64,000 nt of DNA from Succinispira mobilis DSM 6222 (GTDB taxonomy: Bacteria > Bacillota > Negativicutes > Acidaminococcales > Succinispiraceae): the NCBI RefSeq assembly GCF_000384135.1, contig NZ_KB913028.1, forward strand, positions 62,001-126,000. The letters are read 5' to 3'. Under the pieces are notes generated by a model. That model searched no databases, had not been told where the DNA came from, and saw only the letters and a list, made by a program, of their open reading frames with translations. A program made the translations under genes and the position numbers. The first letter of the stretch is position 1, and every line of letters begins with the position of its first letter. Of this stretch, positions 11,538-40,357 are shown one piece after another.

Positions 11538-12266
11538 TTATCTTATCGCAAGAACTTTGCGAACTTTTTCCAAATCTTCTGGGGTATCTACGCCTACCGC
11601 ATTATAAGCAACTTCTAAAACTTTTATCTTATAACCATTTTCTAAAACACGGAGTTGCTCCAAACTTTCAATTTGCTCTAAATAACCCACTGGTAAACTA
11701 GCAAACTTAAGCAAAAAATCGCGTTTATAGGCGTAAACACCAATATGTTTATATATTTGTGTTGTCGCTAATTTATTCCGAACATAAGGTATTTGCGAAC
11801 GCGAAAAATACAATGCATTATTATCACAATCAGTTACCACTTTTACACAGGCTGGATCAGCATATTCAGATGCTGGCATTACCGTTTTTAGCGTCGCCAT
11901 TTGCAAATCTGGTTCTTGTAAAAAGGCTGTAACCAAACGATCAATAATTTCACTAGGAATTAAGGGTTCATCGCCTTGAACATTAACAATTAAATCCACT
12001 TCAGGATAATGTTGTGCTACCTCTGCTAGTCGATCTGTACCACTAGTATGCGCAGCACTAGTCATACATACCTTACCCGCAAAATTTTGCACAGCTTCAT
12101 AAACCAAACTATTATCAGTAGCCACAATCACATCTTCCAACAATTTCGCTTGTTTAGCCTGCTCATATACCCAGCGAATCATCGGTTTCCCACAAATATC
12201 CGCTAAAGGTTTCCCGGGTAATCTGCTTGATGCGTATCTAGCTGGAATTACACATATAACCTTCAT
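11538..12266 (-). CDS. kdsB: CMP-Kdo synthetase KdsB
   Basis: Activates Kdo with CTP for transfer by WaaA. The 242-residue nucleotidyltransferase has the N-terminal [14 protein letters not shown] motif, [18 protein letters not shown] and the C-terminal [12 protein letters not shown]. Its ATG overlaps the waaA-lpxK stop (TAATG), so it is coupled to the transferase that uses its product. Confidence 0.97.
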
Positions 12267-14803
12267 TATTTTCTTTTCCCCTTTTTAATCTTTTCTTCCA
12301 CAATATCTAGGAATTCTCGCTCACCATTGAGCATTTTCACCTCGATACCTAAAATGTATAGGGGCAATTCCCGTTGTGAATAAATAAATTCCGAAGGAAT
12401 TTTTACAGCATCTTTTTCTGTAGTAATCAACGCTCGTACTTTTTGACTTAAAGCGCGTTCCGTAACATACTGCATTTCTACCATCCCATAATCATGATGG
12501 TCAGGGTAGCGAATAGTCTCCACTAATTCTACGCCAATATCCGCTAAGGATTGTTCAAAAGAAGATGGGTTGCCAATCGCAGAAAAAGCCATTACGGCGC
12601 AACCTTTCAAGTCTTGTAAATCTTTTTTATTATCTTTTATCCCTTTATACCAGTCTGCAATCTCCACAAAGTAGCAGGGGCTATGAACACTTTCAAAAAC
12701 TATAGCGTGTTGATTATTTTTCGCTAATACTTCTTTAACTTTTTCTTTGGCTGCTTCTGTTGATTGATTAGTCTTGGTCAACAAAAACATATTTGCCCGA
12801 TCTAAGTTCTCTAATGGTTCCCGCAAAGTACCGCGCGGTAATAGGCAATTATTGCCAAACATATTTAAGGTATCTACTAGTACAATATCTAAATCCCGAG
12901 CTAGTTGCCAATGCTGATAACCATCATCCATGATAATTACATCGGGGCGCATACTATCTACTACATATTTACCTGTAATCGCCCGATCTTTACCAATAAC
13001 AACTGGCACTCCAGGAAGATTTTTAGCTAATAAATACGCTTCATCGCCAGCTTCGAAAGCCGTCATGTAAATTCTTTTACCATCTGAAACTACCCCAATC
13101 GGATCATCCCAATGAGCTCGATAACCACGATTTAAAATAACTACACGGTAACCTAAATCTCTAATTAAGGCCGCCATTTTTTGAGCAGTAGGTGTTTTAC
13201 CTGTGCCCCCTACTGTAATATTACCAAGACTAATGACCATACAATCCAATTTGTTTTGTTGTAAAATCCCAGTACGATACAGAGCGAGTTTAGTCCACAC
13301 GCCCAGCTCATAAATAACTGAAGCCACTCGTAAAAAAATTAAAATAAAATAATCCCAATAGTGGTTGATTTTACCATGTACCAAGCGATATAAATATAAC
13401 TTCACGGCTTCACGTTGCCGCATTCGCTCGCCACCTTCTATTGTTATATGTCTGCTAGTTGCATTATTAATCGAATAATTTAAGTTTTTACCATGAATGG
13501 CATCGCCCGCCAATAAAGCTTGTAAATATTCAATACTCCGTTTAGCCGCACCACGATTATCAATAATAACCTGCAAAGAACCCTGCCCCATACTATTTCT
13601 TAAATTATCATCGCTCACAATTTTTAACAGACTTTCTGTTAACTCTTGTTGATTGTTAACAGTGTGACAGGCCTTATTTTGTTTTAGCAAGGCATGAGAA
13701 TCTTTAAAATTAAACATATGTGGTCCAACAACAATCGGTTTGGCATGGGCTGCTGGTTCTAAGACATTATGACCACCATGAGTTATCAAACTCCCACCAA
13801 CATAGACAACATCGCCGACTGCATAAATTCTACCTAACTCACCAATAGTATCAATTAAAATTACTTGACTAGCCAACCGTTCTGCCGCAGGTTGAGTTAA
13901 TAACTCTTTGCGGAAACCCACACTATAACCAGCTTTTTGGGCTAAATGTGTTATTTCTTGCACTCTACCTGGTTTACGCGGTGCAATTACTAGTTTGGCT
14001 TCAGGAAATTTAGCCAATATCTGCGCAAAAGATACCAGAAGCATACTTTCTTCATTGGGATGTGTACTGCCAGCCACAATTATCGGATAGCTGCCAGTTA
14101 ACGCCATCTCCGCCAAAAATTTTTCCTTATCTTCGGGCGTAACTTCTGCATACGTTTGGTCGAATTTTGTATTGCCTGTTACCACAACACGTTCTTTAGC
14201 TGCACCTAATTTTATAATATATTCTGCATCCAACTTAGATTGCATGCAAAATTTATCTACACTTTCGAGCATATCTGTTAAAATTCCAAACAGATATTTA
14301 TAGCTTTTCACGCTTTTGTCACTAATTCGTCCATTAACCATCATTACCGGGATATCATTTTGATTAATCGTGCGCAAAAAATTAGGCCATAATTCCGTCT
14401 CTACTGGCATAAATACCCGCGGTTTTATTCTCTCTACTACCCAATTGGTTATAAAACAAATATCTAAAGGGAAATAGATAATCGCAGTCGCTTCAGGAAT
14501 TATTTGTTTAGCCATCGAATACCCACCTGTAGTTACAGCCGAAACCAAAATCGGAGTATTGGGAAATGCCTGCCTTATTTCCTTAACCAGCGGGCTAGTT
14601 GCCACAATCTCCCCTACAGAGGCACCATGTATCCATATACAGTTTTTTTCTGCTACCAAAGCAATATCTTCTGGGCGCAGAAATCCCAAACTCTGTTTGA
14701 AACGTCTTTTAAAGCCATCCTCTTTCAATGCCCGTAAGCCGAACATTGGTAAGACTAAGAAGATAAATACTATTATTAGTAAAAGATTGTAAATTATATA
14801 CAT
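12266..14803 (-). CDS. waaA-lpxK: WaaA-LpxK fusion: Kdo transferase + lipid A 4'-kinase
   Basis: Single 845-residue reading frame joining two lipid A enzymes. Residues 1 to about 430 are WaaA/KdtA (GT30): N-terminal membrane helix, HGASVGEIVAT with the catalytic Glu at 65, PVETELWPN, AGSTHPNEE, the late GGSL..HGGHNVLEPA donor site. Residues about 470-845 are LpxK: membrane-associated helix, SLGNITVGGTGKTP P-loop (about 526-538), NRGYRAH, MDDGYQHW. A linker of about 38 residues joins them with no stop. Inside the linker an AAGGTGG precedes ATG 461 (13423), a possible internal start giving free LpxK. It lies downstream of msbA and couples to kdsB. Confidence 0.93.
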   Translation of the reverse strand: MYIIYNLLLIIVFIFLVLPMFGLRALKEDGFKRRFKQSLGFLRPEDIALVAEKNCIWIHGASVGEIVATSPLVKEIRQAFPNTPILVSAVTTGGYSMAKQIIPEATAIIYFPLDICFITNWVVERIKPRVFMPVETELWPNFLRTINQNDIPVMMVNGRISDKSVKSYKYLFGILTDMLESVDKFCMQSKLDAEYIIKLGAAKERVVVTGNTKFDQTYAEVTPEDKEKFLAEMALTGSYPIIVAGSTHPNEESMLLVSFAQILAKFPEAKLVIAPRKPGRVQEITHLAQKAGYSVGFRKELLTQPAAERLASQVILIDTIGELGRIYAVGDVVYVGGSLITHGGHNVLEPAAHAKPIVVGPHMFNFKDSHALLKQNKACHTVNNQQELTESLLKIVSDDNLRNSMGQGSLQVIIDNRGAAKRSIEYLQALLAGDAIHGKNLNYSINNATSRHITIEGGERMRQREAVKLYLYRLVHGKINHYWDYFILIFLRVASVIYELGVWTKLALYRTGILQQNKLDCMVISLGNITVGGTGKTPTAQKMAALIRDLGYRVVILNRGYRAHWDDPIGVVSDGKRIYMTAFEAGDEAYLLAKNLPGVPVVIGKDRAITGKYVVDSMRPDVIIMDDGYQHWQLARDLDIVLVDTLNMFGNNCLLPRGTLREPLENLDRANMFLLTKTNQSTEAAKEKVKEVLAKNNQHAIVFESVHSPCYFVEIADWYKGIKDNKKDLQDLKGCAVMAFSAIGNPSSFEQSLADIGVELVETIRYPDHHDYGMVEMQYVTERALSQKVRALITTEKDAVKIPSEFIYSQRELPLYILGIEVKMLNGEREFLDIVEEKIKKGKRK

Positions 14804-25013: not shown

Positions 25014-26282
25014 TTACAAGCGTGTTACAATTCTAAAATAGCGCTCTTTGTTAGAAAATACATATTCCGCCGTAAAAAATTCATGGACTCGATAACTAAG
25101 CGCAAATTCATTTTCATGCTCCGCTGGCTTACGTTCAATCCGCAAACCCCAATCGCGATTAAATTGATGTTGCAGACGAAAAATATCCTCATGGCTATTT
25201 ACACGCCGCAGATATGTTACCGTTGTTTTCTTATAGCGTTGTGCTATGCCCAAATCGACATCAAACTGCATACTATCAGTATACAAGCTCGTTTCTAAGA
25301 GAATTTCGTTATTCTTCGATAAGTCATAACCAATATGCATTTTGCCCGATGAAGATTTTTCGCTTCGACCTAAATCTAAATAACCTTCCAGCCAAAAATT
25401 ATAATCTGCCAGATCTAATTGCACTTCTACTTGTAAATTCTCTGCAATAATTAAATTTAGACTATTAAAAAGTTTATAGCGGGCAACAAATTTGTCTTGG
25501 AGTAACTCTTTTGTTAAAATTTCTTTTATCGCTACTTGATTTTCCCGAATAAATTCTAAAGGCAAGCCGCGCAAAGTATTTGCTGTCCTTTGAAACTTAT
25601 TTTTACTCTCCAACATTAATAATTTGGGAATATTTTTGGAGTACATAGTTAAGTTAACAGTTTGAACCTCTTGACCTACGGGAATAATCGTCACATCAAA
25701 TTCCGGCTCTTTCTCACCATGTAACTGAGTTACAACCTTAAATGCCGGCAAATATTTTTGTGCTTGTTGATAAACACGCTCTCGGGCCACACTATTTAAC
25801 CAAAAGGTTGCCTCTATGGGCATCCCTTGGAAAATGAGCGGTACTTGCGCTGTTGCTTTTAAAGCTTGGGCGGCTATTAACGGTTGCCACAATTCTTGAA
25901 CTCCTGAATAATCAAAGTTCATTTTTACTCCAGTAATTGTTTCTCCCCAAGCTTGTAATTTTACTTGCAACCGACTTTGCTCTGCTAAATCCAAATTAAT
26001 GCTCGCCACTTGATAACCAGTAAAAGTCCGATTAACAATATCTTTAAATAGCTCCTGATAAACCATTTTATCAGGTATAATTTCTTGGACTGTTCGCCCG
26101 ACTAATACTTGCTCGGTAATCGGCAATAAACTTGCTTGCATCCTTTTTTGCACGGCAACATCAATGTTTTGCGGATAACTGATTTCCAGCTGCACCGTTT
26201 GAATTTCCCGTGCTTCAACTCCTGAACTTGAGTAACCGATTAAAATAATTAGCATTACCAGCAATTTCCAAAATTTACCCAT
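25014..26282 (-). CDS. Secreted protein of unknown function next to bamA
   Basis: I do not recognise this 422-residue protein. It has a signal peptide (cleavage near VEA|RE), a repeat-like N-terminal half with mixed alpha/beta pattern, and a C-terminal half (about 290-422) of alternating polar/apolar strands such as FWLEGYLDLGRSE and FALSYRVHEFFTAEY, ending RIVTRL. This suggests an OM-associated beta-sheet, perhaps a partial barrel or a barrel-contacting domain. It starts six bases after bamA, with no ribosome-binding site of its own visible, so it is probably translated with BamA. A role in OM assembly is inferred from position only. Confidence 0.75.
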   Translation of the reverse strand: MGKFWKLLVMLIILIGYSSSGVEAREIQTVQLEISYPQNIDVAVQKRMQASLLPITEQVLVGRTVQEIIPDKMVYQELFKDIVNRTFTGYQVASINLDLAEQSRLQVKLQAWGETITGVKMNFDYSGVQELWQPLIAAQALKATAQVPLIFQGMPIEATFWLNSVARERVYQQAQKYLPAFKVVTQLHGEKEPEFDVTIIPVGQEVQTVNLTMYSKNIPKLLMLESKNKFQRTANTLRGLPLEFIRENQVAIKEILTKELLQDKFVARYKLFNSLNLIIAENLQVEVQLDLADYNFWLEGYLDLGRSEKSSSGKMHIGYDLSKNNEILLETSLYTDSMQFDVDLGIAQRYKKTTVTYLRRVNSHEDIFRLQHQFNRDWGLRIERKPAEHENEFALSYRVHEFFTAEYVFSNKERYFRIVTRL

Positions 26283-26288
26283 GATCGT

Positions 26289-28091
26289 CTAGAACTGACC
26301 GCCAAAGCTGAAATGGAAGCGACCTTCTTCTTCACCAATCGCATAATCTAAGCGCACTGGACCTAAAGGCGAGGTAATTCTAAAGCCCACACCAATACTA
26401 GTTTTTATATCACTTAAATCCATATTCACGCCTTTATTCCAAGCATAACCAGCATCGGAGAACACTACCCCTTGTACTTTTTTCACAACTGGGAAGCGAT
26501 ATTCCAAGGTACCTGACATCATTTTATAGCCTTTAAATTGATCATCTTTATAGCCGCGCAAAGTTTCTGCCCCACCCAAAGAAAATCTTTGACTCAAGGG
26601 CATTGTCCCATCCGCATAGCCCGCGTCAAATTTAACCGCAATAACATGATCATTGTTTTGCTTAAAATACCAGCGACTGTCTAAGAAATATTTATTAAAG
26701 TTAAAATCACCAGACATTCCTGCAAATTCAGCCCCTACGGAAACTTTTGTGCCTTCACTAGGGTTATGTACACTATCTCTAGTATCCACTACTCGCATCA
26801 AAGTAACACTACGAGTTAAACCAAAGTTTTCAGAAATTTTCCCAGGGTTATCACGATAATATTGAGGTTCATGACCTTCAATCGCTTTTACATAAGTATC
26901 TTCCCGATCTTTATAGGTCACAAAATTGGTTACATGCTCTGATTGTGGACGACTTAAGGTTAATTCATAACCACGACGTTTTTTATCATAACGAGCTTTA
27001 TCACTAGAATCATCATTATATTCTTGATATTCATTTGTAGCATCATAAATTGATAAACCTAAAGCTGTTTCTTTTTTATCTAGCCAAGGGCGTACATAAC
27101 CAAATTCATAGTTTTTATTGCTTTCGCCGCCAAATTCCCAACGAATATTAACTTTATCGCCCGTACCACGGAAATTCTTATCACCCAAGCTTACAATACC
27201 GACAAACCCATCACTATTGCTATAACCGGCACCAATACCAAAAGTACCTGTATTCATCTCCACAACGCTAACTTCAACTTCTACGGCATTCGGATTACGT
27301 CCAGGATTAAGCTTTACATTAACATCTTCAAAGTAGCCTAAATTGTAAATCCGTTGAATACTGCGGCGCGCATCTTTCGAGTTAAAAGGTTTCCCAACTT
27401 TTAACCGCATTTCTCTAGTGACTACGTAGGCTTTGGTTTTTTTGTTGCCCTTCACACTAAACCCTTCTACATTACCTTCATTTACAGTAAGTTTCAAGGT
27501 TCCATCTTCGTTCATTTTTACATCGCTAATCCGCGTTAAAATATACCCATCTTGCTTATATTTAGCTTCAATGGCGCGAATGCTTTTATTTAACTCCACC
27601 GAATTGATAATCTTATTTTTAGGTAGGGTTATCATATTAGCCAACTCTACATTTTTATATACAGAGTTACCTTGAATTTCTAATTTAGAAAAAATGGGGT
27701 TTTCTAATACCCGATATACAACTTGAACGCCTTCGGGGACCAAATTATATTCTGGTTGCACATCATAAAACCAGCCTAAGCTATATATTGCTTGCAAGTC
27801 ATTATCTAGTGCTTGTTTAGTCAAACTCATGCCCGGTTTTAAAGAGACAACACTCTCCAGCAAACCACTTTCAATCAATTTATTGCCTTGAACCGCAACT
27901 TTAACTACAGTTTTCCCTTCCACGCTTTCTTGTTTAGTTGTTTCTTGTTGGACAGCTGTAGTAGCCGCATTTATCGTTTCTGGTTCTGCCGCTAAAATAA
28001 CATTTTCCCATACACCAAACCCAATAGCTGTAGTTAAGCAAGTCGCCAATAACGTCTTTTTTAATCTACTTCCGATGATAACCTTTTTCAT
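26289..28091 (-). CDS. bamA: Outer-membrane protein assembly factor BamA (Omp85)
   Basis: Inserts beta-barrel proteins into the OM. The 600-residue protein has a signal region (about 1-35), three POTRA domains (about 55-130, 131-205, 206-285) rather than the five of E. coli, and a 16-strand-type barrel with the conserved lid motif LRGY (RGY 512-514) and terminal FHFSFGGQF. It follows the single-TM protein with the stop and start touching and is preceded by GGGGGA. It is the only Omp85 protein in the window. Confidence 0.96.
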   Translation of the reverse strand: MKKVIIGSRLKKTLLATCLTTAIGFGVWENVILAAEPETINAATTAVQQETTKQESVEGKTVVKVAVQGNKLIESGLLESVVSLKPGMSLTKQALDNDLQAIYSLGWFYDVQPEYNLVPEGVQVVYRVLENPIFSKLEIQGNSVYKNVELANMITLPKNKIINSVELNKSIRAIEAKYKQDGYILTRISDVKMNEDGTLKLTVNEGNVEGFSVKGNKKTKAYVVTREMRLKVGKPFNSKDARRSIQRIYNLGYFEDVNVKLNPGRNPNAVEVEVSVVEMNTGTFGIGAGYSNSDGFVGIVSLGDKNFRGTGDKVNIRWEFGGESNKNYEFGYVRPWLDKKETALGLSIYDATNEYQEYNDDSSDKARYDKKRRGYELTLSRPQSEHVTNFVTYKDREDTYVKAIEGHEPQYYRDNPGKISENFGLTRSVTLMRVVDTRDSVHNPSEGTKVSVGAEFAGMSGDFNFNKYFLDSRWYFKQNNDHVIAVKFDAGYADGTMPLSQRFSLGGAETLRGYKDDQFKGYKMMSGTLEYRFPVVKKVQGVVFSDAGYAWNKGVNMDLSDIKTSIGVGFRITSPLGPVRLDYAIGEEEGRFHFSFGGQF

Positions 28092-28627
28092 TACAGTCCC
28101 CCTATGTTTTTATTATAGCCTTGCAAACCTTTTTGCGCTTGGCGTACCAAAGCTTGTTTTTCCTGTTCCGTAAATCTAGTCTTTAGCTCTGACGTTTTTT
28201 CTGTTCGAATTTCTGGTTGCGGTTCACGACTAGCTGTTTCCAGTCGCTCTTGCGTTTCTAACAAAACTGGTTGTTGCTTGACTTCGGCTTGTATTGGCTG
28301 TGTCTTTATATTTTTTTCAGAGTTTAACAATCCCCTCTCCACTGTAATACTTTTATCTACAATATTAACAATTTTTTCTTGTTTCGTAAAGTACCAATAA
28401 GCAGAGGGCATAATTAAACAAACCGCTAATAGTAAAATAAGCTGGCGATATTTTTTTTGCAAAACGCTTGTCGTCCCTAAGCGCAAATGCTTCATCTCTG
28501 CTTCCGCTAGCATTAAATCCAAATGACCGCGCACAGCATTGTCCTTAGCAAAGCTATCCTCTGCACTATTTAACCATTGTTTTACAATTTTTATTTTGGT
28601 GCCTATTCCTTCTTTAGCTTTTACCAT
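28091..28627 (-). CDS. Single-pass membrane protein, possible sigma-factor partner
   Basis: Unrecognised 178-residue protein. Residues 1-60 are charged and presumably cytoplasmic (KQWLNSAEDSFAKDNAVRG), one TM helix spans about 62-80 (QLILLLAVCLIMPSAYWYF), and the rest is a polar, low-complexity Gln/Glu-rich extracytoplasmic tail ending in a short helix. No Cys or zinc-finger anti-sigma motif is present. It lies between the sigma factor and bamA. The topology fits a membrane anti-sigma or sensor protein, but that is inference; it could equally be a BamA-linked scaffold. GGAGGTG precedes the ATG. Confidence 0.7.
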   Translation of the reverse strand: MVKAKEGIGTKIKIVKQWLNSAEDSFAKDNAVRGHLDLMLAEAEMKHLRLGTTSVLQKKYRQLILLLAVCLIMPSAYWYFTKQEKIVNIVDKSITVERGLLNSEKNIKTQPIQAEVKQQPVLLETQERLETASREPQPEIRTEKTSELKTRFTEQEKQALVRQAQKGLQGYNKNIGGL

Positions 28628-28761
28628 GCTGTCACCTCCACAATAAACAAAGTCTGAGCAACATCTTTTTTTGATAGTAGCTATTTTTCTTATTTTTGAC
28701 TATATTATCCAGTTTTATTACATTAGCTCGCTTATAAACCCTTAGATAACTATTTTTTAAG

Positions 28762-29370
28762 TTATTTAAAATTTTGCCAAACTCTCGCTAACATCCCTCT
28801 TATTCGATTAATTCCTTGTTTGCGCAACTTATAAATATAGGCGGGGGTAACATTAATTTGTGCGGCCAAAGCCGCGACTTCTTGTTCTTGAAAATATATA
28901 CCGGCCAAAACTTCCTGCTCTTTAATTGGTAATTTTGCCAAAGCTTCTTGAAGTTTTTGCGCAATATATTCTTCTTCTAAGAGAGTTTGGGCACTCTTGC
29001 CAGGCTCAACTAAACTTTCCTGACTAAGTTCACTCCAACTCTCTACCTCACGGGAATTCTTTTTTAGATAATCAATCATTTGCCCACGAATTCTATGTAG
29101 GGCAAATAAGCTAAAAGCTACTTCTTTAGTATAGTCATAGCGTTCAATACATTCTATTAGGGCTAAATTACCTTCTTGCACTAATTCCAATGTTAAATTT
29201 TCCGCAAGACCAAAGGCTAAGGCCGTCTTAAAAACTAAGGGTTGATAGGCTGTTGCTAATTTAGTTCTGCTTTCAATGCAACCTGCAGCATAAGCTTGCC
29301 ACAAAAGTTGTTCCTCAGCCTTTTCTAACAAAACAATTTTTTTTAATTCCTGCAAATATTGTTTTAACAA
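28762..29370 (-). CDS. Sigma-70 family sigma factor, regions 2 and 4
   Basis: A 202-residue sigma factor with region 2 (LVFKTALAFGLAENLTLELVQEGNLALIECIERYD; LFALHRIRGQMIDYLKK) and region 4 (LAKLPIKEQEVLAGIYF; INVTPAYIYKLRKQGINRIR helix-turn-helix). Region 1 is absent and region 3 minimal; the RIRGQMIDYL segment resembles the FliA/SigB-like group more than ECF factors. It starts with TTG, GGAGGG six bases upstream. It lies 12 bases after tamB and before bamA. Its regulon is unknown; OM-assembly or stress genes are a reasonable guess from context. Confidence 0.88.
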   Translation of the reverse strand: MLKQYLQELKKIVLLEKAEEQLLWQAYAAGCIESRTKLATAYQPLVFKTALAFGLAENLTLELVQEGNLALIECIERYDYTKEVAFSLFALHRIRGQMIDYLKKNSREVESWSELSQESLVEPGKSAQTLLEEEYIAQKLQEALAKLPIKEQEVLAGIYFQEQEVAALAAQINVTPAYIYKLRKQGINRIRGMLARVWQNFK

Positions 29371-29382
29371 GCCTATCCCTCC

Positions 29383-32300
29383 TTAAAAATTAATTTTATA
29401 CTCCACCCCATAGCGGTAACGCCGACTTTCATCCCAACCAACATTGAAATTTATACGTTTATCTACCTCATACTGCATATAATAATTATAGTGCTCGCGG
29501 TCTAAAGTTGTTGTATAACCTAACAGTACTTTATCGGTTATATATTTACTTACTAAAACATTATAGCTTTCATAATCATCTTTTTTCGCGCCAAATTTTT
29601 TACCATTATTCCCAAAAGTTGTGCCTGTTAATAACTCCCCTTGATATAGGCGAAACTCATCAATACCTATCGTATCCCGCACTGCACTTTCTAACTCGCC
29701 AAACACACTCATTTGCAAACCCGCTGCTAACAAGGCTTTAGCATCTTCGCCCTCTACCGCAGTTGTATTCGTAGCTTGAGTACGCAAGGTTAACATTCTA
29801 AATAATTCTTGCTGACTCATAGGGGGATTAGAAGTTAGCTTTAGATCCATTTCATCTACTGGGCCACGCACATTTAAGAATATATCCGTTCTAAACAATC
29901 TGCTAGTGGCATATAGATTAATACTTGGTATCAATGATCCCTGCAAAGGAAAGCCCAAAATAGCCGACTTAACTTTAAAAGGTGTGCGCAAATAGTTTAT
30001 GGTGCCGCGCGTTACTCTAATTGTCCCATCGATATTAGGATAACGCAAACTCCCCAAAACTTTTAAATTGCCTTCTAAATCTAAGTCATATAGCAAGGGA
30101 TTATACATTTTTAAATTTTTTCCAATGTCAATGGCGATATCCAAACCGACAGCAGGTAAAGTTCCCGCCCCAAATTCAGGAATTGTCGGAATGTTGATTA
30201 TTAAGTTATCCAACAACACTTGCCCTTGAATAACTGGTCTTGATTTTTGCGGTTGCGGTTTTACTACTAAATTAGCCGTTAGAGGCCCCGCCGTATAAGC
30301 AGAATCAATTGCCAATTTATTCAGATTAATGTCTAACTGGTAATTATCCACCCCGTTGCCATTGATATTTAAATCCCCTACGGCCAACAAATTACCTTCA
30401 CCCATTTGCGCCGATAATTCTTTTAAGCGAACTTTTTTACCTAGAAAATCAATGTCCAAATTAAGCTCTAAAAGTGGGTTTTTAAATGCAGCTAATTTTA
30501 CTACGGCCTTATCGGTCTTAATACTACCGTATAATTGTGGCGCATTAAAATCGCCCGTAACACGCAAATCACCTAAAATTGCACCTTTAGCATAAGCAAC
30601 CTGCTTAGTTAAAGTTGTCAAAATCCCGACATCAGCATTATCTAATTTGAACAACACATCCATTTGTGCCGCTTTATCTTTGCGTTCTGCGTAAGGTTTA
30701 AAAATATCCATGGGTATATAACCATAAGCACTGGCCTTATAACCTTGTTTTTGAATAAAAAGTTGTTGAATATTAAGCTTTTGTAATTGCTCTACTGTTA
30801 ATAATGCATATAGGTTATCAAAAGCAACGCTATTTAGAGCACCATTGGCAATTTGCACAGAAGTCGAGATGTCTGGCTTAAGAGTTTGTCCCGTAACCTG
30901 CATTAATAAATCTAAATTCCCCGTCAAATCCACTGGTTCTTTACTTAGTACCGTGAGCAATTTAGCATCGAGATTTTGACCTGCTAATTCTAAATTAACG
31001 GCCCCAGCAAACTCGGCATTGCCTAACAATACCAATTTACCCTGTTGTCCTTGTAAAGCTTCAAATTTATTAATTTGTACTTTGCGCTTATCTAACAAAA
31101 TATCTATTTGAATGTTTTGCAAAGGAATTTTCCGCACCGAACCAGCTTGAATTTGTCCTAACACCTCAATGCCTGTTCCTTTACCGCGTCTATTTAAATT
31201 TATCTCCCCAGTTAACAGGCCTGTAGCTTCTAAATCAGATTTACCTAAAGCTAACAACGAAGCAATATCCGCATTTTCTACAGCTAATTGCCCATAAAGA
31301 TAAGCTTGCAACAAGTCTAATCCACCATAAAAGTCAAATTGACCTGTACCTTGTCTAAAGTTAAGATCGAATTCTGTTTTTAAACCAATTTCACTTTTAA
31401 GACTACCGCTAACGTCGGTAAACTCTTGGTTCAACAGTTTGATTTTTTTAGCTTGAACATTACCTTTAAACACTGGTTGTCTTAAGTTACCCGTAAGTTT
31501 CCCTGTAAAATCCGCATAGCCCTGCGGCGTATATTCTTTATTTACTGGCAAATGGCGTAAATCAATATTATTTGCTTGCACAGAAAAATCTAAATCCCCC
31601 GCCCTGGACATTTTACCATTAATTCGCGCCAAAGCCTGCAACGAAGCAACTTCAACATCTTTAAGCAACAATTCGCCAGCTCGGTAATCATAACTTCCCA
31701 CTACCCGATCTAGCAAGAAACCATTGGCCGAACCTTCCCACAACTTAAATTGCCCTGCAATTTGCGGCTGATTAAGTTTTCCCGTAATTTTAATCTGGTT
31801 ATCAAAAAAGCCTGTAACCTTGATTGGCAAAAAAGCTGTCGCCAATTCATCGATTCTGGCACCACTGGTAACAACTTCTATTTGTACTTCTGGGACAGTT
31901 GTCGTGAAATCAAGTACCCCTTGGCCCCGATGTTTACCCTGCGGTAAATTCATAATCTTGCTCGTGGTAATTTCTAGGTTGGCTATTTCTAGCCGCGACC
32001 CTTGATACCTGCCCTCAGCTACTACAGCATCAATATTTTGTCCCGCTAACACAATTTTGCCTGAATTAATATTGGCCCAAACTGCAGGCTTATCAAGTGT
32101 ACCCTGAATTTTGGCAGTAGCATTTAATTTGCCTCGGGCTTCAACCCCCCCATAACTTGCCAACACTTGCGCAGGTATTCCTTGAGCAGTCAAGTCTAAG
32201 TCTAGTTGTTGCTGCTTAATGCCGCCTTGCAAGGTTATTTCACCTGTTTCATCAACACTTGCCTGAGCATTGTATAGTTTTAATTCATCATTGTTTTTCG

Positions 32301-33708
32301 TAAAATCTAAACTTGCTTCCTTAATTGTTAAACCATGATATTTTAAATTAGCAACGCTAATATTTCCTAATAGCTCAACTTTTTCCGCACTTAGAACACC
32401 CGCAGCCACAAAATCTAAGTTTACACTGCCTGTTAACCCTTGGACTTGTTGTATAGCCCCCAATTCTATATTTTCTGCACTAGCTAGGATATTTATTTTA
32501 TTGTTGCGCAATCCATATTCAGCGTTTATTTTAATTTTGCCCGCACCCGCTGTAACTTCCCCTTGCTCTAAAAATAATTGATTTTGCTGTAATTTAAATG
32601 GCAATTTAAGACTGCTATACATCATTTCCTGAGCTAATAGCTTATCGGCAGTTATTAAGCCCGTAGCCACTAAATTATCAATTGAGCCATCCAATTGGAC
32701 ACTGCCTTGCATTTGTCCTTGCACGGGTAGTTCCGGGAAAAACTTCTGCAATTCCACCGCTTGCACTTGCGCTGTTAAAGCTCGAAAGCGTAAGCCATTA
32801 TCCAAAAACACTTCCCCATTTAGTTTCGCTTGAGCTTCATTGAATTTAACTTGTGTCCCCGCAAACCTTAACACATTGTCAGTTAATTGCAACGGACCCT
32901 GCACCGCAAAATCCACCAGCATATTTTCGATTTGTTTTTTTCCGGTTAAATCCTTTGCCTCTAATTTACCTGATAACAACTTGCCTTTATCTGCGTTTTG
33001 ATAAATTAAGTTTATCTTTTGCAACGAACCAGCAACATTTTGTAGAGTTGTATATTTGGCAATTAATTTTTCCAGTTTAGCAACTGCCAAATCCGCCGCA
33101 ATAAATTCAACCTTACCTCTACCTTGTTCATCTAAAATGCCTCGAGTAGTTAGTTGTCCAACTTCTTGCAAATCAAGCTTTAAGTCTAAATTATATTTTT
33201 TAGCAACCCGAGTGTCTATCGTACCATTTAATTTAGTTTGTACATCCTGCTCAGGAAATTTAATATCAATAATGCTATCTTGAAAGATCACCAAGGCCTG
33301 CAATTTATTTTGTGAAGCTTCACTAGGCTTTAGTAAATCTTGGATATTCCATTCTTCTTGCGCATTAACTTCTAAATTAATTTGCGCTTGAGTCAGCTCA
33401 ATTTTTTCAATCACCTGTAATTTATTGGCCGAAAAAATATTACTAAAGGCGATAGTTAAAGTTGTCTCTGGTAAAGAAATTAGTGTTTTATCAGCTTTGT
33501 TAATGGTCAACTGTTCCAACCTAATTTTATTTATGCCCACCATGGTTAAATTCCCAACCTCCAGTTGGGCATTTAATAACGGGCGTGCTTCCGCAACAAT
33601 ATTATCTCTAATTTTCAGTAACAAACTTGGTAGCAGAGCATAACTGGCTATTATAATAACAGCAATTATTCCTGCACATATTGGAAATATTTTGCGCTTA
33701 TCTAGCAC
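29383..33708 (-). CDS. tamB: TamB-like AsmA/intermembrane lipid-transport protein
   Basis: A 1441-residue TamB/DUF490 protein: N-terminal membrane anchor (about 8-28), a very long repetitive beta region of short strands typical of hydrophobic-groove lipid-transfer proteins, and the C-terminal DUF490 domain (GAGTLPAVGLDIAIDIG, RVTRGTINYLRTPF, PMSQQELFRMLTL) ending in barrel-like YRYGVEYKINF. It starts with GTG after GGGGAG. It is expected to span the periplasm and carry phospholipid to the OM. There is no TamA in the window, so BamA may serve as its OM partner. Confidence 0.93.
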   Translation of the reverse strand: MLDKRKIFPICAGIIAVIIIASYALLPSLLLKIRDNIVAEARPLLNAQLEVGNLTMVGINKIRLEQLTINKADKTLISLPETTLTIAFSNIFSANKLQVIEKIELTQAQINLEVNAQEEWNIQDLLKPSEASQNKLQALVIFQDSIIDIKFPEQDVQTKLNGTIDTRVAKKYNLDLKLDLQEVGQLTTRGILDEQGRGKVEFIAADLAVAKLEKLIAKYTTLQNVAGSLQKINLIYQNADKGKLLSGKLEAKDLTGKKQIENMLVDFAVQGPLQLTDNVLRFAGTQVKFNEAQAKLNGEVFLDNGLRFRALTAQVQAVELQKFFPELPVQGQMQGSVQLDGSIDNLVATGLITADKLLAQEMMYSSLKLPFKLQQNQLFLEQGEVTAGAGKIKINAEYGLRNNKINILASAENIELGAIQQVQGLTGSVNLDFVAAGVLSAEKVELLGNISVANLKYHGLTIKEASLDFTKNNDELKLYNAQASVDETGEITLQGGIKQQQLDLDLTAQGIPAQVLASYGGVEARGKLNATAKIQGTLDKPAVWANINSGKIVLAGQNIDAVVAEGRYQGSRLEIANLEITTSKIMNLPQGKHRGQGVLDFTTTVPEVQIEVVTSGARIDELATAFLPIKVTGFFDNQIKITGKLNQPQIAGQFKLWEGSANGFLLDRVVGSYDYRAGELLLKDVEVASLQALARINGKMSRAGDLDFSVQANNIDLRHLPVNKEYTPQGYADFTGKLTGNLRQPVFKGNVQAKKIKLLNQEFTDVSGSLKSEIGLKTEFDLNFRQGTGQFDFYGGLDLLQAYLYGQLAVENADIASLLALGKSDLEATGLLTGEINLNRRGKGTGIEVLGQIQAGSVRKIPLQNIQIDILLDKRKVQINKFEALQGQQGKLVLLGNAEFAGAVNLELAGQNLDAKLLTVLSKEPVDLTGNLDLLMQVTGQTLKPDISTSVQIANGALNSVAFDNLYALLTVEQLQKLNIQQLFIQKQGYKASAYGYIPMDIFKPYAERKDKAAQMDVLFKLDNADVGILTTLTKQVAYAKGAILGDLRVTGDFNAPQLYGSIKTDKAVVKLAAFKNPLLELNLDIDFLGKKVRLKELSAQMGEGNLLAVGDLNINGNGVDNYQLDINLNKLAIDSAYTAGPLTANLVVKPQPQKSRPVIQGQVLLDNLIINIPTIPEFGAGTLPAVGLDIAIDIGKNLKMYNPLLYDLDLEGNLKVLGSLRYPNIDGTIRVTRGTINYLRTPFKVKSAILGFPLQGSLIPSINLYATSRLFRTDIFLNVRGPVDEMDLKLTSNPPMSQQELFRMLTLRTQATNTTAVEGEDAKALLAAGLQMSVFGELESAVRDTIGIDEFRLYQGELLTGTTFGNNGKKFGAKKDDYESYNVLVSKYITDKVLLGYTTTLDREHYNYYMQYEVDKRINFNVGWDESRRYRYGVEYKINF

Positions 33709-38434: not shown

Positions 38435-40357
38435 TTATTCTACCTCTACCATTACCATCGTATCACCATTAACCAAGTATTCTGTTGGCACTGCTTTTTT
38501 AAAGGGACTGCCAAACAAAATCGAGCTGAAAGTTTTGTTATTATTAACGCCCGCTAAAGGGTTTAACATTTCTAAAGGATTATTCTCATTTTGAGTATTA
38601 CTTAAAGCTTTTTTAATTTGTTTACCATTATTTTTTTCCTTAGGGAAATTCGGTAAAATATCCACTACAATATCTTGGTTATTATCTTGGTTATTAAATT
38701 CATCCACGATTTGAACCAAACTTTTATTTCTGGTCATCTCTTCTTGCAAGAAACTACTATCGCGTTGTTGCTGTTTAATCATCGCTTGAATCCAAGCAAT
38801 CGAAGCACCGCCCCGTACCATTAAAGAAGCTTTTCCTTTAGGGAATTTTTCTGGAATAGTGTATTCAATAATTTTAGTTTGAGCTTTACCGCGATAAGGT
38901 TGGATTTTAACAGCAATTTCAAATTTTTCGCCCGCTTTTACTTTTTCTTGTCCAGGTTTAGCGGAAATAATTTTCGCCAATTTACATTCACTGGTAACAT
39001 CTACATCTACATCTACATGCACAATATTAATTTTTTCAAAACGATTATCTGCTAATAAATTCATTCCCGCATATAGTTCACCTGTTGTCGCCCCAGTAAT
39101 ATTATTTTGACTATAAAACATGTTTTTTCGGCTAATTTTTCTTTCAGCCGGTAAATTATCCGCCACAATATTAAAACTTACCAAGGCACTGCCTTCACCA
39201 TTGCGGTCTAAAACTCGATCCACTAAATTATAAACGCTACTTTCAATTAGAACTTTGCTCAATAATTCACTCGACAAAATTTGTAACGCAAATTCACGCT
39301 CCGTACCTTTATCACGATCGTGAACTTTCACTAACACCGGAATAATCTTAGGACTTCTCCCCAATACTCCTGCAATACCTGCGCCTCGATCTTGTTTAAT
39401 TCTGCCAATTGGTTCACCTACTACGCCTAATTTAAAAGGCGAGGCTATCGACTTAACAGAAGTTAACATCCAAGCACGCGACATAAAATAATCTACATCA
39501 CCTAATTTTAAAAAAGGATGACCAAAGGCTAACACCCGTCCCTGATCTACATAAGTTACTGTACCTAAAGCACCTAAATTCAAATCCCCTTTTACCAAAT
39601 CAGCACTTACAGCACTTCCAGGTTCCAAGGGCTTGTCACTAACACTACCAGCAACATTACCTACCTCTTGCGCCGTTAAATTATAGACTTTGAGGCGTTC
39701 TTGCAGAAAAGACAAACCACGTTGGGTAAAACCACTAGCCATTAGCGCAGTACTCTTCGGTTGCATTTTATTTATCAGCGCTGCCTTTTCAGTTGTCTCC
39801 GGAAAAAAGTCTTGAACTGCCGCCGCTAATTCTTTGGTAATTGATTTTTCTTCCCCTTGAGCAACACTAGAAGTTTGCTCTTCCTTATTTTGCTCCGTCT
39901 TTTTTTCTTGTAATTTAATTTTTTCCAACTCTAAAGCCTTAGCATCAGCCTGGGCCATGGTATCAAATAGCTTTAACATCTCCCCAATAGGCGTCAACAT
40001 GCCTACTGTTGAGTCTGTCATCCCCCAACCATAGGCAATAGCACCTACTAGCTTACCATCAATATATACAGGGCTCCCACTCATACCTTGGGCAATACCA
40101 CCGGTCCGTTCAATTAGCGGTCCCGAAGTTTTTATTAAAATTAAACTGCCTCCTGTTGGTCCTTGTTGTGGCATAATCCCTAAAATTTCCACATCAAACT
40201 CTTCGATTGTATCGCCAGTAATAACTGTACGCGCTACCCCTTGCATGCCTGGGCGCAATTCTGCCACCGACATAAACTCTTGAGCTTTAACCTGGGGAAC
40301 TACTAACAGTACTAATACCGCTACTAACATTCCCGTTATTATTTTTTTAATTTGCAT
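38435..40357 (-). CDS. SpoIVB-like S55 family protease, exported
   Basis: A 640-residue protein with a signal peptide (cleavage near VKA|QEF). N-terminal part (about 27-135) carries the S55 serine motif TGGIAQGMSGSPVYIDGK (GMSGSP 91-96) preceded by FDVEILGIMPQ. A charged low-complexity linker (about 135-180) follows. Then LGTVTYVDQGRVLAFGH (His 280) and SPFKLGVVGEPIG match the part of SpoIVB that precedes its serine, so the halves appear swapped. The C-terminal half (about 400-640) is beta-rich and unassigned. No PDZ domain is seen. It follows the small lipoyl-like gene by 28 bases and is followed by a terminator. Substrate unknown. Confidence 0.8.
   Translation of the reverse strand: MQIKKIITGMLVAVLVLLVVPQVKAQEFMSVAELRPGMQGVARTVITGDTIEEFDVEILGIMPQQGPTGGSLILIKTSGPLIERTGGIAQGMSGSPVYIDGKLVGAIAYGWGMTDSTVGMLTPIGEMLKLFDTMAQADAKALELEKIKLQEKKTEQNKEEQTSSVAQGEEKSITKELAAAVQDFFPETTEKAALINKMQPKSTALMASGFTQRGLSFLQERLKVYNLTAQEVGNVAGSVSDKPLEPGSAVSADLVKGDLNLGALGTVTYVDQGRVLAFGHPFLKLGDVDYFMSRAWMLTSVKSIASPFKLGVVGEPIGRIKQDRGAGIAGVLGRSPKIIPVLVKVHDRDKGTEREFALQILSSELLSKVLIESSVYNLVDRVLDRNGEGSALVSFNIVADNLPAERKISRKNMFYSQNNITGATTGELYAGMNLLADNRFEKINIVHVDVDVDVTSECKLAKIISAKPGQEKVKAGEKFEIAVKIQPYRGKAQTKIIEYTIPEKFPKGKASLMVRGGASIAWIQAMIKQQQRDSSFLQEEMTRNKSLVQIVDEFNNQDNNQDIVVDILPNFPKEKNNGKQIKKALSNTQNENNPLEMLNPLAGVNNNKTFSSILFGSPFKKAVPTEYLVNGDTMVMVEVE

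Follow-up and report, generated by a model that had tools for sequence, protein, structure and literature searches.

A sigma factor and a single-pass membrane protein encoded between tamB and bamA: a probable circuit linking outer-membrane assembly and gene expression

Introduction

In Succinispira mobilis DSM 6222, genes for a sigma factor and for a protein with a single transmembrane helix (hereafter MP) lie together between tamB and bamA, and this placement raises the question of whether the two proteins form a regulatory circuit devoted to the outer membrane. The locus is part of a stretch of 64,000 nucleotides (contig NZ_KB913028.1, positions 62,001 to 126,000; hereafter the window, from whose first letter all coordinates are counted). 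A partner whose gene directly follows that of a two-domain sigma factor, and that crosses the membrane once with its N-terminus inside, is usually an anti-sigma factor, as is known from ECF systems, and RpoE-RseA of E. coli is an envelope stress system tied to the assembly of outer-membrane proteins. An earlier, sequence-only reading of the window noted this layout and proposed an outer-membrane-assembly stress response analogous to RpoE-RseA but composed of unrelated proteins. The analysis reported here suggests that the pair probably forms a circuit that links outer-membrane assembly and gene expression. That the two proteins are a sigma/anti-sigma circuit devoted to the outer membrane is given a probability of roughly two in three, and an outer-membrane-assembly stress response is the best inference as to its function rather than a result.

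Gene order at the locus

The genes are carried on the minus strand in the order mlaEFD, tolC, tamB, sigma factor, MP, bamA, an open reading frame (ORF) of unknown family, three skp-like genes and lpxD, with some of the names in this cluster assigned through a combination of homology and position. The wider cluster includes genes for the flagellar P-ring (FlgI) and MreB. Immediately upstream of the sigma factor gene is tamB (29383-33708, minus strand; Pfam TamB, E 2e-33). The sigma factor gene itself (28762-29370, minus strand) begins with a TTG codon and encodes 202 amino acids. It is separated by an intergenic region of 134 nt (28628-28761, unstranded) from the gene for MP, a candidate anti-sigma factor of 178 amino acids that belongs to no Pfam or NCBIfam family (28091-28627, minus strand). 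Immediately downstream follows bamA (26289-28091, minus strand; Omp85, E 1.5e-50, with POTRA repeats), whose ORF overlaps that of MP by 1 nt. The ORFs as checked on the minus strand, together with the Pfam matches, agree with the sequence-only reading in the coordinates of the two proteins and in their placement between tamB and bamA.

Two further genes of the window deserve mention. The 422-aa protein encoded after bamA (25014-26282, minus strand) has no significant Pfam or NCBIfam family, and its position is conserved in Negativicutes and in many loci of Armatimonadota and Sysuimicrobiota. At 12266-14803 (minus strand), a single ORF of 845 codons encodes a Kdo transferase (WaaA-type) joined to LpxK.

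The sigma factor

The sigma factor comprises regions 1.2, 2 and 4, and region 3 is absent in that no Sigma70_r3 match was found with Pfam. Region 1.2/2 corresponds to residues 1-107 (29050-29370, minus strand), of which residues 38-107 match Sigma70_r2 (E 2.3e-14; 53 bits versus a cut-off of 24). Region 4, at about residues 130-195 (28786-28983, minus strand), is matched weakly by Sigma70_r4 in the window protein (4e-4 to 1e-3) and forms a four-helix C-terminal domain in the model of an ortholog. Membership in the sigma-70 family is indicated by NCBIfam TIGR02937 (80.4 bits versus a cut-off of 42.9), and the assignment of regions 2 and 4 made in the sequence-only reading is thereby upheld. The protein start, MLKQYLQELKK with its TTG codon, aligns with the starts of orthologs. 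Residues 1-37 are a region 1.2-like segment: the Pfam r1_2 match reaches an E-value of only 0.1, residues 1-106 of the ortholog model superimpose on sigma-70 region 1.2/2 with an rmsd of 1.8, and profile matches to SigA and RpoS begin at position 4. An ECF factor in the strict sense consists of sigma-2 and sigma-4 only, and the region 1.2-like segment places this protein outside that definition. The best PDB profile match is WhiG (6pfv and 6pfj; E ~2e-32), with SigA and FliA also near; scores against the dedicated families are far below their cut-offs, both for FliA (TIGR02479, 72.3 versus 189.6 bits) and for WhiG (NF004935, 72.4 versus 343 bits). Judged by its sequence, the sigma factor is neither a standard ECF factor, because it carries region 1.2, nor of the FliA type. 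In one Phascolarctobacterium MAG (locus L050, 6001-6632), an apparent frameshift, either real or an assembly error, splits the sigma factor gene into two ORFs.

The membrane protein

MP begins with a domain of 60 residues (28448-28627, minus strand) that is predicted to form a two-helix hairpin and carries the motif hI..A..WL..A....RG.L.LmLAeAE. This is followed by the sole hydrophobic helix, the transmembrane helix at residues 63-81 (28385-28441, minus strand), by a variable extracytoplasmic linker at residues 82-148 (28184-28384, minus strand), and by a conserved C-terminal amphipathic helix at residues 152-168 (28124-28174, minus strand). The net charge around the transmembrane helix is +4 on its N-terminal side and +1 on its C-terminal side, and the N-terminal domain of about 60 amino acids is therefore placed in the cytoplasm; helix position and charge bias thus confirm the topology first proposed, namely a cytoplasmic part of 60 residues, one transmembrane helix and an extracytoplasmic tail. 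The linker is rich in Pro, Gln, Ala, Ser and Thr in most relatives and less so in the window copy. In an alignment of 44 family members, A22, L40 and A43 are invariant, L19, L36 and E44 are nearly so, and mean pairwise identity falls from 0.40 in the hairpin to 0.27 in the transmembrane helix and 0.13 in the linker, and rises again to 0.32 in the C-terminal helix. The hairpin is thus the most conserved part of the protein, as would be expected if it binds the sigma factor.

None of the 44 members has the H...C..C zinc motif (ZAS), whose absence was first noted in the window copy, and none has the RsiG c-di-GMP motif E(X)3S(X)2R(X)3Q(X)3D. No known domain was found in MP by Pfam and NCBIfam searches of the 44 members or by a PDB profile search; the scattered weak matches in these libraries fall mostly on the transmembrane helix and the low-complexity tail. 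NF052375, named 'antisigma', matches 5 of the 44 members (best E 4e-4) and is not counted as evidence. The class I anti-sigma domain of RseA, ChrR and RsiW is a three-helix bundle with a fourth helix (PMC7406223), and the model of an ortholog predicts instead two helices before the transmembrane helix, which would set the N-domain of MP apart from that class. MP is most likely an anti-sigma factor of a new, membrane-bound type.

Distribution, co-occurrence and joint loss of the pair

A scan for the sigma factor across ~85,000 species (GTDB, one genome per species) yielded 61 loci, and in 60 of these tamB and/or bamA was recognised beside the sigma factor in the same order and orientation; the remaining locus (L046) stops short of bamA, and a long ORF of the size of TamB lies on its upstream side. 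Within Negativicutes, the loci belong to Acidaminococcaceae, Selenomonadaceae and Veillonellaceae. Outside this class, they come from Halanaerobiales-type genomes, a Limnochordia-like MAG, Armatimonadota, and Sysuimicrobiota/ANGP1. A one-helix MP lies between the sigma factor and bamA in most loci whose contig extends far enough. Pairwise search detects MP in Negativicutes only; in most distant loci, an ORF with the anatomy of MP fills the gap between the sigma factor and bamA, and these proteins align as one MP family. Both genes were found in one stretch in 164 loci, a number that includes loci fetched later and counts some genomes twice. Conservation of the pair across Negativicutes, named in the sequence-only reading as a check of its proposal, is therefore seen there and in further phyla. 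In a tree of the sigma factor, Negativicutes are broadly apart from the Armatimonadota-type sequences, a pattern that fits long vertical inheritance and falls short of proving it.

Among 200 Negativicutes genomes, family profile searches detected both proteins in 165 and neither in 35. These numbers derive from a comparison by eye of two lists, the one of sigma factors at E 1e-30 or better (165 of 200) and the other of MP matches (167 of 200), from which two genomes (G017 and G037) were discarded as weak (~1e-4). The same pattern of co-occurrence was found in 41 nearer relatives. In 28 genomes from distant lineages, most of which had been picked by their MP status, both genes were present in 15 and neither in 12, the remaining genome (G297) being cut by a contig end. 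Both genes are kept even in a genome (G177) in which an insertion of ~3.2 kb separates them. This locus (contig C1, 2561495-2565787; L103, L234) is the sole case seen of a separated pair, and its insertion includes ORFs that read by eye as HD-GYP-like and methyltransferase-like.

All nine pair-less genomes examined have bamA. In seven of them, tamB is directly upstream, with gaps of 41-516 nt, and the other two are uninformative on account of a contig end and an unrecognised upstream ORF, respectively. One of the seven (G371) lacks the pair while the other listed members of its genus (g17) carry it. The sigma factor and MP have thus been gained or lost jointly in several separate lineages, with the outer-membrane assembly genes staying in place, because there are no exceptions in which one is kept singly and because tamB abuts bamA where the pair has been lost. 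It should be noted that Fisher tests were run, and that the genomes are not independent of each other, so that weight is placed on the missing exceptions and the separate losses rather than on p-values. The pair is dispensable, as some Omp85-bearing genera of Negativicutes are without it.

The association with Omp85 was further assessed in a phylum-wide sample of 249 genomes, in which MP was accepted at E 1e-15 or better, a genome counted as Omp85-positive if its match exceeded the cut-off, and neighbourhood was not a selection criterion. MP was detected in 14 of 61 Omp85-positive genomes versus 0 of 188 Omp85-negative genomes. In 14 of 14 genomes, MP ends ~0.9-1.6 kb before the Omp85 barrel domain on the same strand and so directly precedes the POTRA-encoding part. 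The outer membrane does not need MP, because 47 Omp85-positive genomes are without it. Weaker matches in this sample (E 1e-3 to 1e-6) were discarded, as they covered only the transmembrane helix and the Pro/Ala-rich tail.

Predicted packing of MP on the sigma factor

Loci in which the sigma factor, the intergenic region and MP are in frame were translated as one natural chain, with stop codons read as glycine, and these pseudo-fusions were used for AF2 modelling; the linker in the query is a few residues long and may itself favour packing. The sigma factor alone (208 aa, 51 species) was predicted with a pTM of 0.52, and the sigma factor with the N-domain and transmembrane helix of MP (293 aa, the same 51 species) with a pTM of 0.65 and a pLDDT of ~93-96 in the hairpin. 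Had the added protein failed to pack, a fall in pTM would have been expected, and the rise, with packing judged from pTM and pLDDT values, suggests that the hairpin packs on the sigma factor and fixes the sigma domains relative to each other. In the fused model, sigma regions 2 and 4 are not in the arrangement that they adopt when bound to RNA polymerase (rmsd 22-24 over both domains); the fold search with this model covered the sigma factor alone (residues 1-210). Mutual information between the two proteins showed no excess over expectation in 131 pairs, which are too few for such an analysis. The pairing of the two proteins, which the sequence-only reading had based on topology and position, is now additionally favoured by conservation, co-occurrence, joint loss, confinement to Omp85-bearing genomes, conservation of the hairpin and the rise in pTM, and direct binding keeps the status of a candidate.

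A promoter-like site before MP and bamA

The gap between the sigma factor and MP measures ~100-180 nt in most Negativicutes, whereas the genes on either side are closely spaced. The sequence GAYTNTA occurs no more than 110 nt from the start of MP in 44 of 74 non-identical intergenic regions versus 7 +/- 2.5 in Markov shuffles. In 18 of 33 Negativicutes loci, no other site in the locus matches a two-block motif (GTGAA-like, followed by GAYTRTA) as well as the one before MP; the motif was trained on these same regions. These patterns indicate that a conserved promoter-like site precedes MP-bamA, and use of the site by the sigma factor is not claimed. The motif varies within genera, in the intergenic region of the window it is no more than a weak candidate, and in Succiniclasticum-like loci its position reads as an ordinary sigma-A promoter (TTGCCA-N17-TATAAT). 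Given the circularity of training, the variation within genera and the possible sigma-A promoter, no regulon was drawn from the motif.

Proposed circuit and alternative explanations

In the proposed circuit, the sigma factor would probably be co-transcribed behind tamB, and the N-terminal hairpin of MP would hold it, in a presumably inhibited state, at the inner membrane. MP would cross this membrane once, and its flexible tail, in most relatives rich in Pro, Gln and Ala and ending in a conserved helix, would extend into the periplasm and may there sense the assembly state of outer-membrane proteins or another envelope signal. Upon such a signal, MP would free the sigma factor through proteolysis or a conformational change, and the freed factor would direct RNA polymerase to its promoters, probably among them the one before MP-bamA-skp-lpx. 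The tail is long enough in principle for far periplasmic reach, and it might, speculatively, read BAM or TAM directly. In a fuller version of this circuit, which is put forward tentatively, an ancient outer-membrane surveillance system would have been inherited with tamB-bamA by diderm Bacillota and by Armatimonadota/Sysuimicrobiota, MP would be a new two-helix class of anti-sigma factor with a TonB-like, periplasm-spanning tail, and its terminal helix would read BAM/TAM.

Upstream of mlaEFD-tolC-tamB, the window encodes a 640-aa protein with a match to SpoIVB peptidase S55 (38435-40357, minus strand), with a GMSGSP serine motif near its N-terminus and a GHPF motif further on. Of 35 genomes tested, 34 have a relative of this protein, irrespective of whether they carry the sigma-MP pair; as pair-less genomes have it too, it was rejected as a dedicated partner and is at most a shared protease. 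As a guess, the protein that Antunes et al. (2016) list as 'COG0750' may be this one.

Several other explanations of the pair can be weighed against the proposed circuit. The two proteins could be a genuine anti-sigma pair with a role other than outer-membrane assembly (motility, the sensing of surfaces or growth phase, for instance), with their site in an outer-membrane operon being the relic of an ancient cluster. Such a role might be read from the profile searches, in which WhiG/FliA-type sigma factors are the nearest sequences, and from the flgI and mreB genes of the wider cluster; yet the sigma factor scores far below the FliA and WhiG cut-offs (72 bits versus 190 and 343), tamB and bamA are its immediate neighbours in every sampled phylum, and MP is confined to Omp85-bearing genomes and lies directly upstream of Omp85 even in an unbiased profile search, which together make this explanation unlikely. 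A different possibility concerns MP alone, which could be an activator, an adaptor or a membrane anchor and recruit either sigma-RNA polymerase or the nascent transcript of bamA to the membrane. Exceptionless co-occurrence suits any obligate partner, and a protein that does not clearly resemble known anti-sigma domains in sequence, and that is predicted to form a two-helix hairpin in place of a class I domain, need not be an inhibitor; against this stands what is known of ECF systems, where one-helix, N-in proteins whose genes directly follow that of a two-domain sigma factor usually act as anti-sigma factors, and such a positive or anchoring role is considered improbable.

At the far end of the range is the idea that MP is an accessory component of BAM or TAM and that the sigma factor is an unrelated neighbour. 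Its position directly before bamA and its conserved periplasmic C-terminal helix would be in keeping with such a component, but neither MP nor the sigma factor is ever kept singly, loss of the pair leaves bamA and tamB in place, and it is the cytoplasmic part of MP that is most conserved, so that this idea is very hard to sustain.

Relation to known systems and significance

The sigma/anti-sigma circuit favoured here resembles RpoE-RseA in having a two-domain sigma factor beside a single-pass, N-in partner without a zinc motif, and in its expected link to outer-membrane protein assembly. It differs in that the sigma factor carries region 1.2, which RpoE and other ECF factors lack, in that no similarity of MP to RseA is detectable and a two-helix hairpin is predicted for it in place of a three-helix bundle with a fourth helix, and in that MP is encoded between tamB and bamA with no RseB-like gene seen adjacent. 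The initial description of the proteins as unrelated to RpoE-RseA thus holds for MP, within the reach of the sequence libraries, and does not hold for the sigma factor, which like RpoE belongs to the sigma-70 superfamily. Compared to WhiG-RsiG of Actinobacteria, WhiG is the best PDB match of the sigma factor and RsiG, like MP, is of a helical coiled-coil type; however, the present sigma factor has no region 3, and MP is membrane-bound and lacks the c-di-GMP motif. RsiG has been reported in Actinobacteria only (PMC8325347). ECF factors with class I partner domains (ChrR, RsiW and RskA type) likewise combine sigma-2 and sigma-4, several of them with a membrane partner of similar topology, whereas MP has no zinc motif and its predicted secondary structure differs from that of the class I domain.

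The surrounding genes are those of the outer-membrane cluster described in diderm Firmicutes, including tamB, bamA, skp and lpx (Antunes et al., 2016; PMC5007114). No sigma factor is mentioned in the main text of that study, which reports three other proteins as 'new OM-related'. In Veillonella parvula, the locus tags of TamB and BamA are consecutive (Vpar_0526/0527; PMC5491611), therefore leaving no room for the pair, and its absence may explain why it went unnoticed in that organism. Within the open-licence PMC literature, no published description of the sigma-MP pair was found, nor was a published outer-membrane stress response in diderm Firmicutes or Armatimonadota. What is new is thus an unlisted partner family with a fixed place in the outer-membrane cluster, and what is known is the type of module, a sigma factor with a membrane partner. 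MP would add an anti-sigma family that is absent from Pfam and NCBIfam, and the surveillance system outlined above, if true, would give bacteria outside Proteobacteria their own, independent counterpart of RpoE-RseA. The pair is a concrete, testable candidate for the coupling of envelope assembly to transcription in these bacteria.
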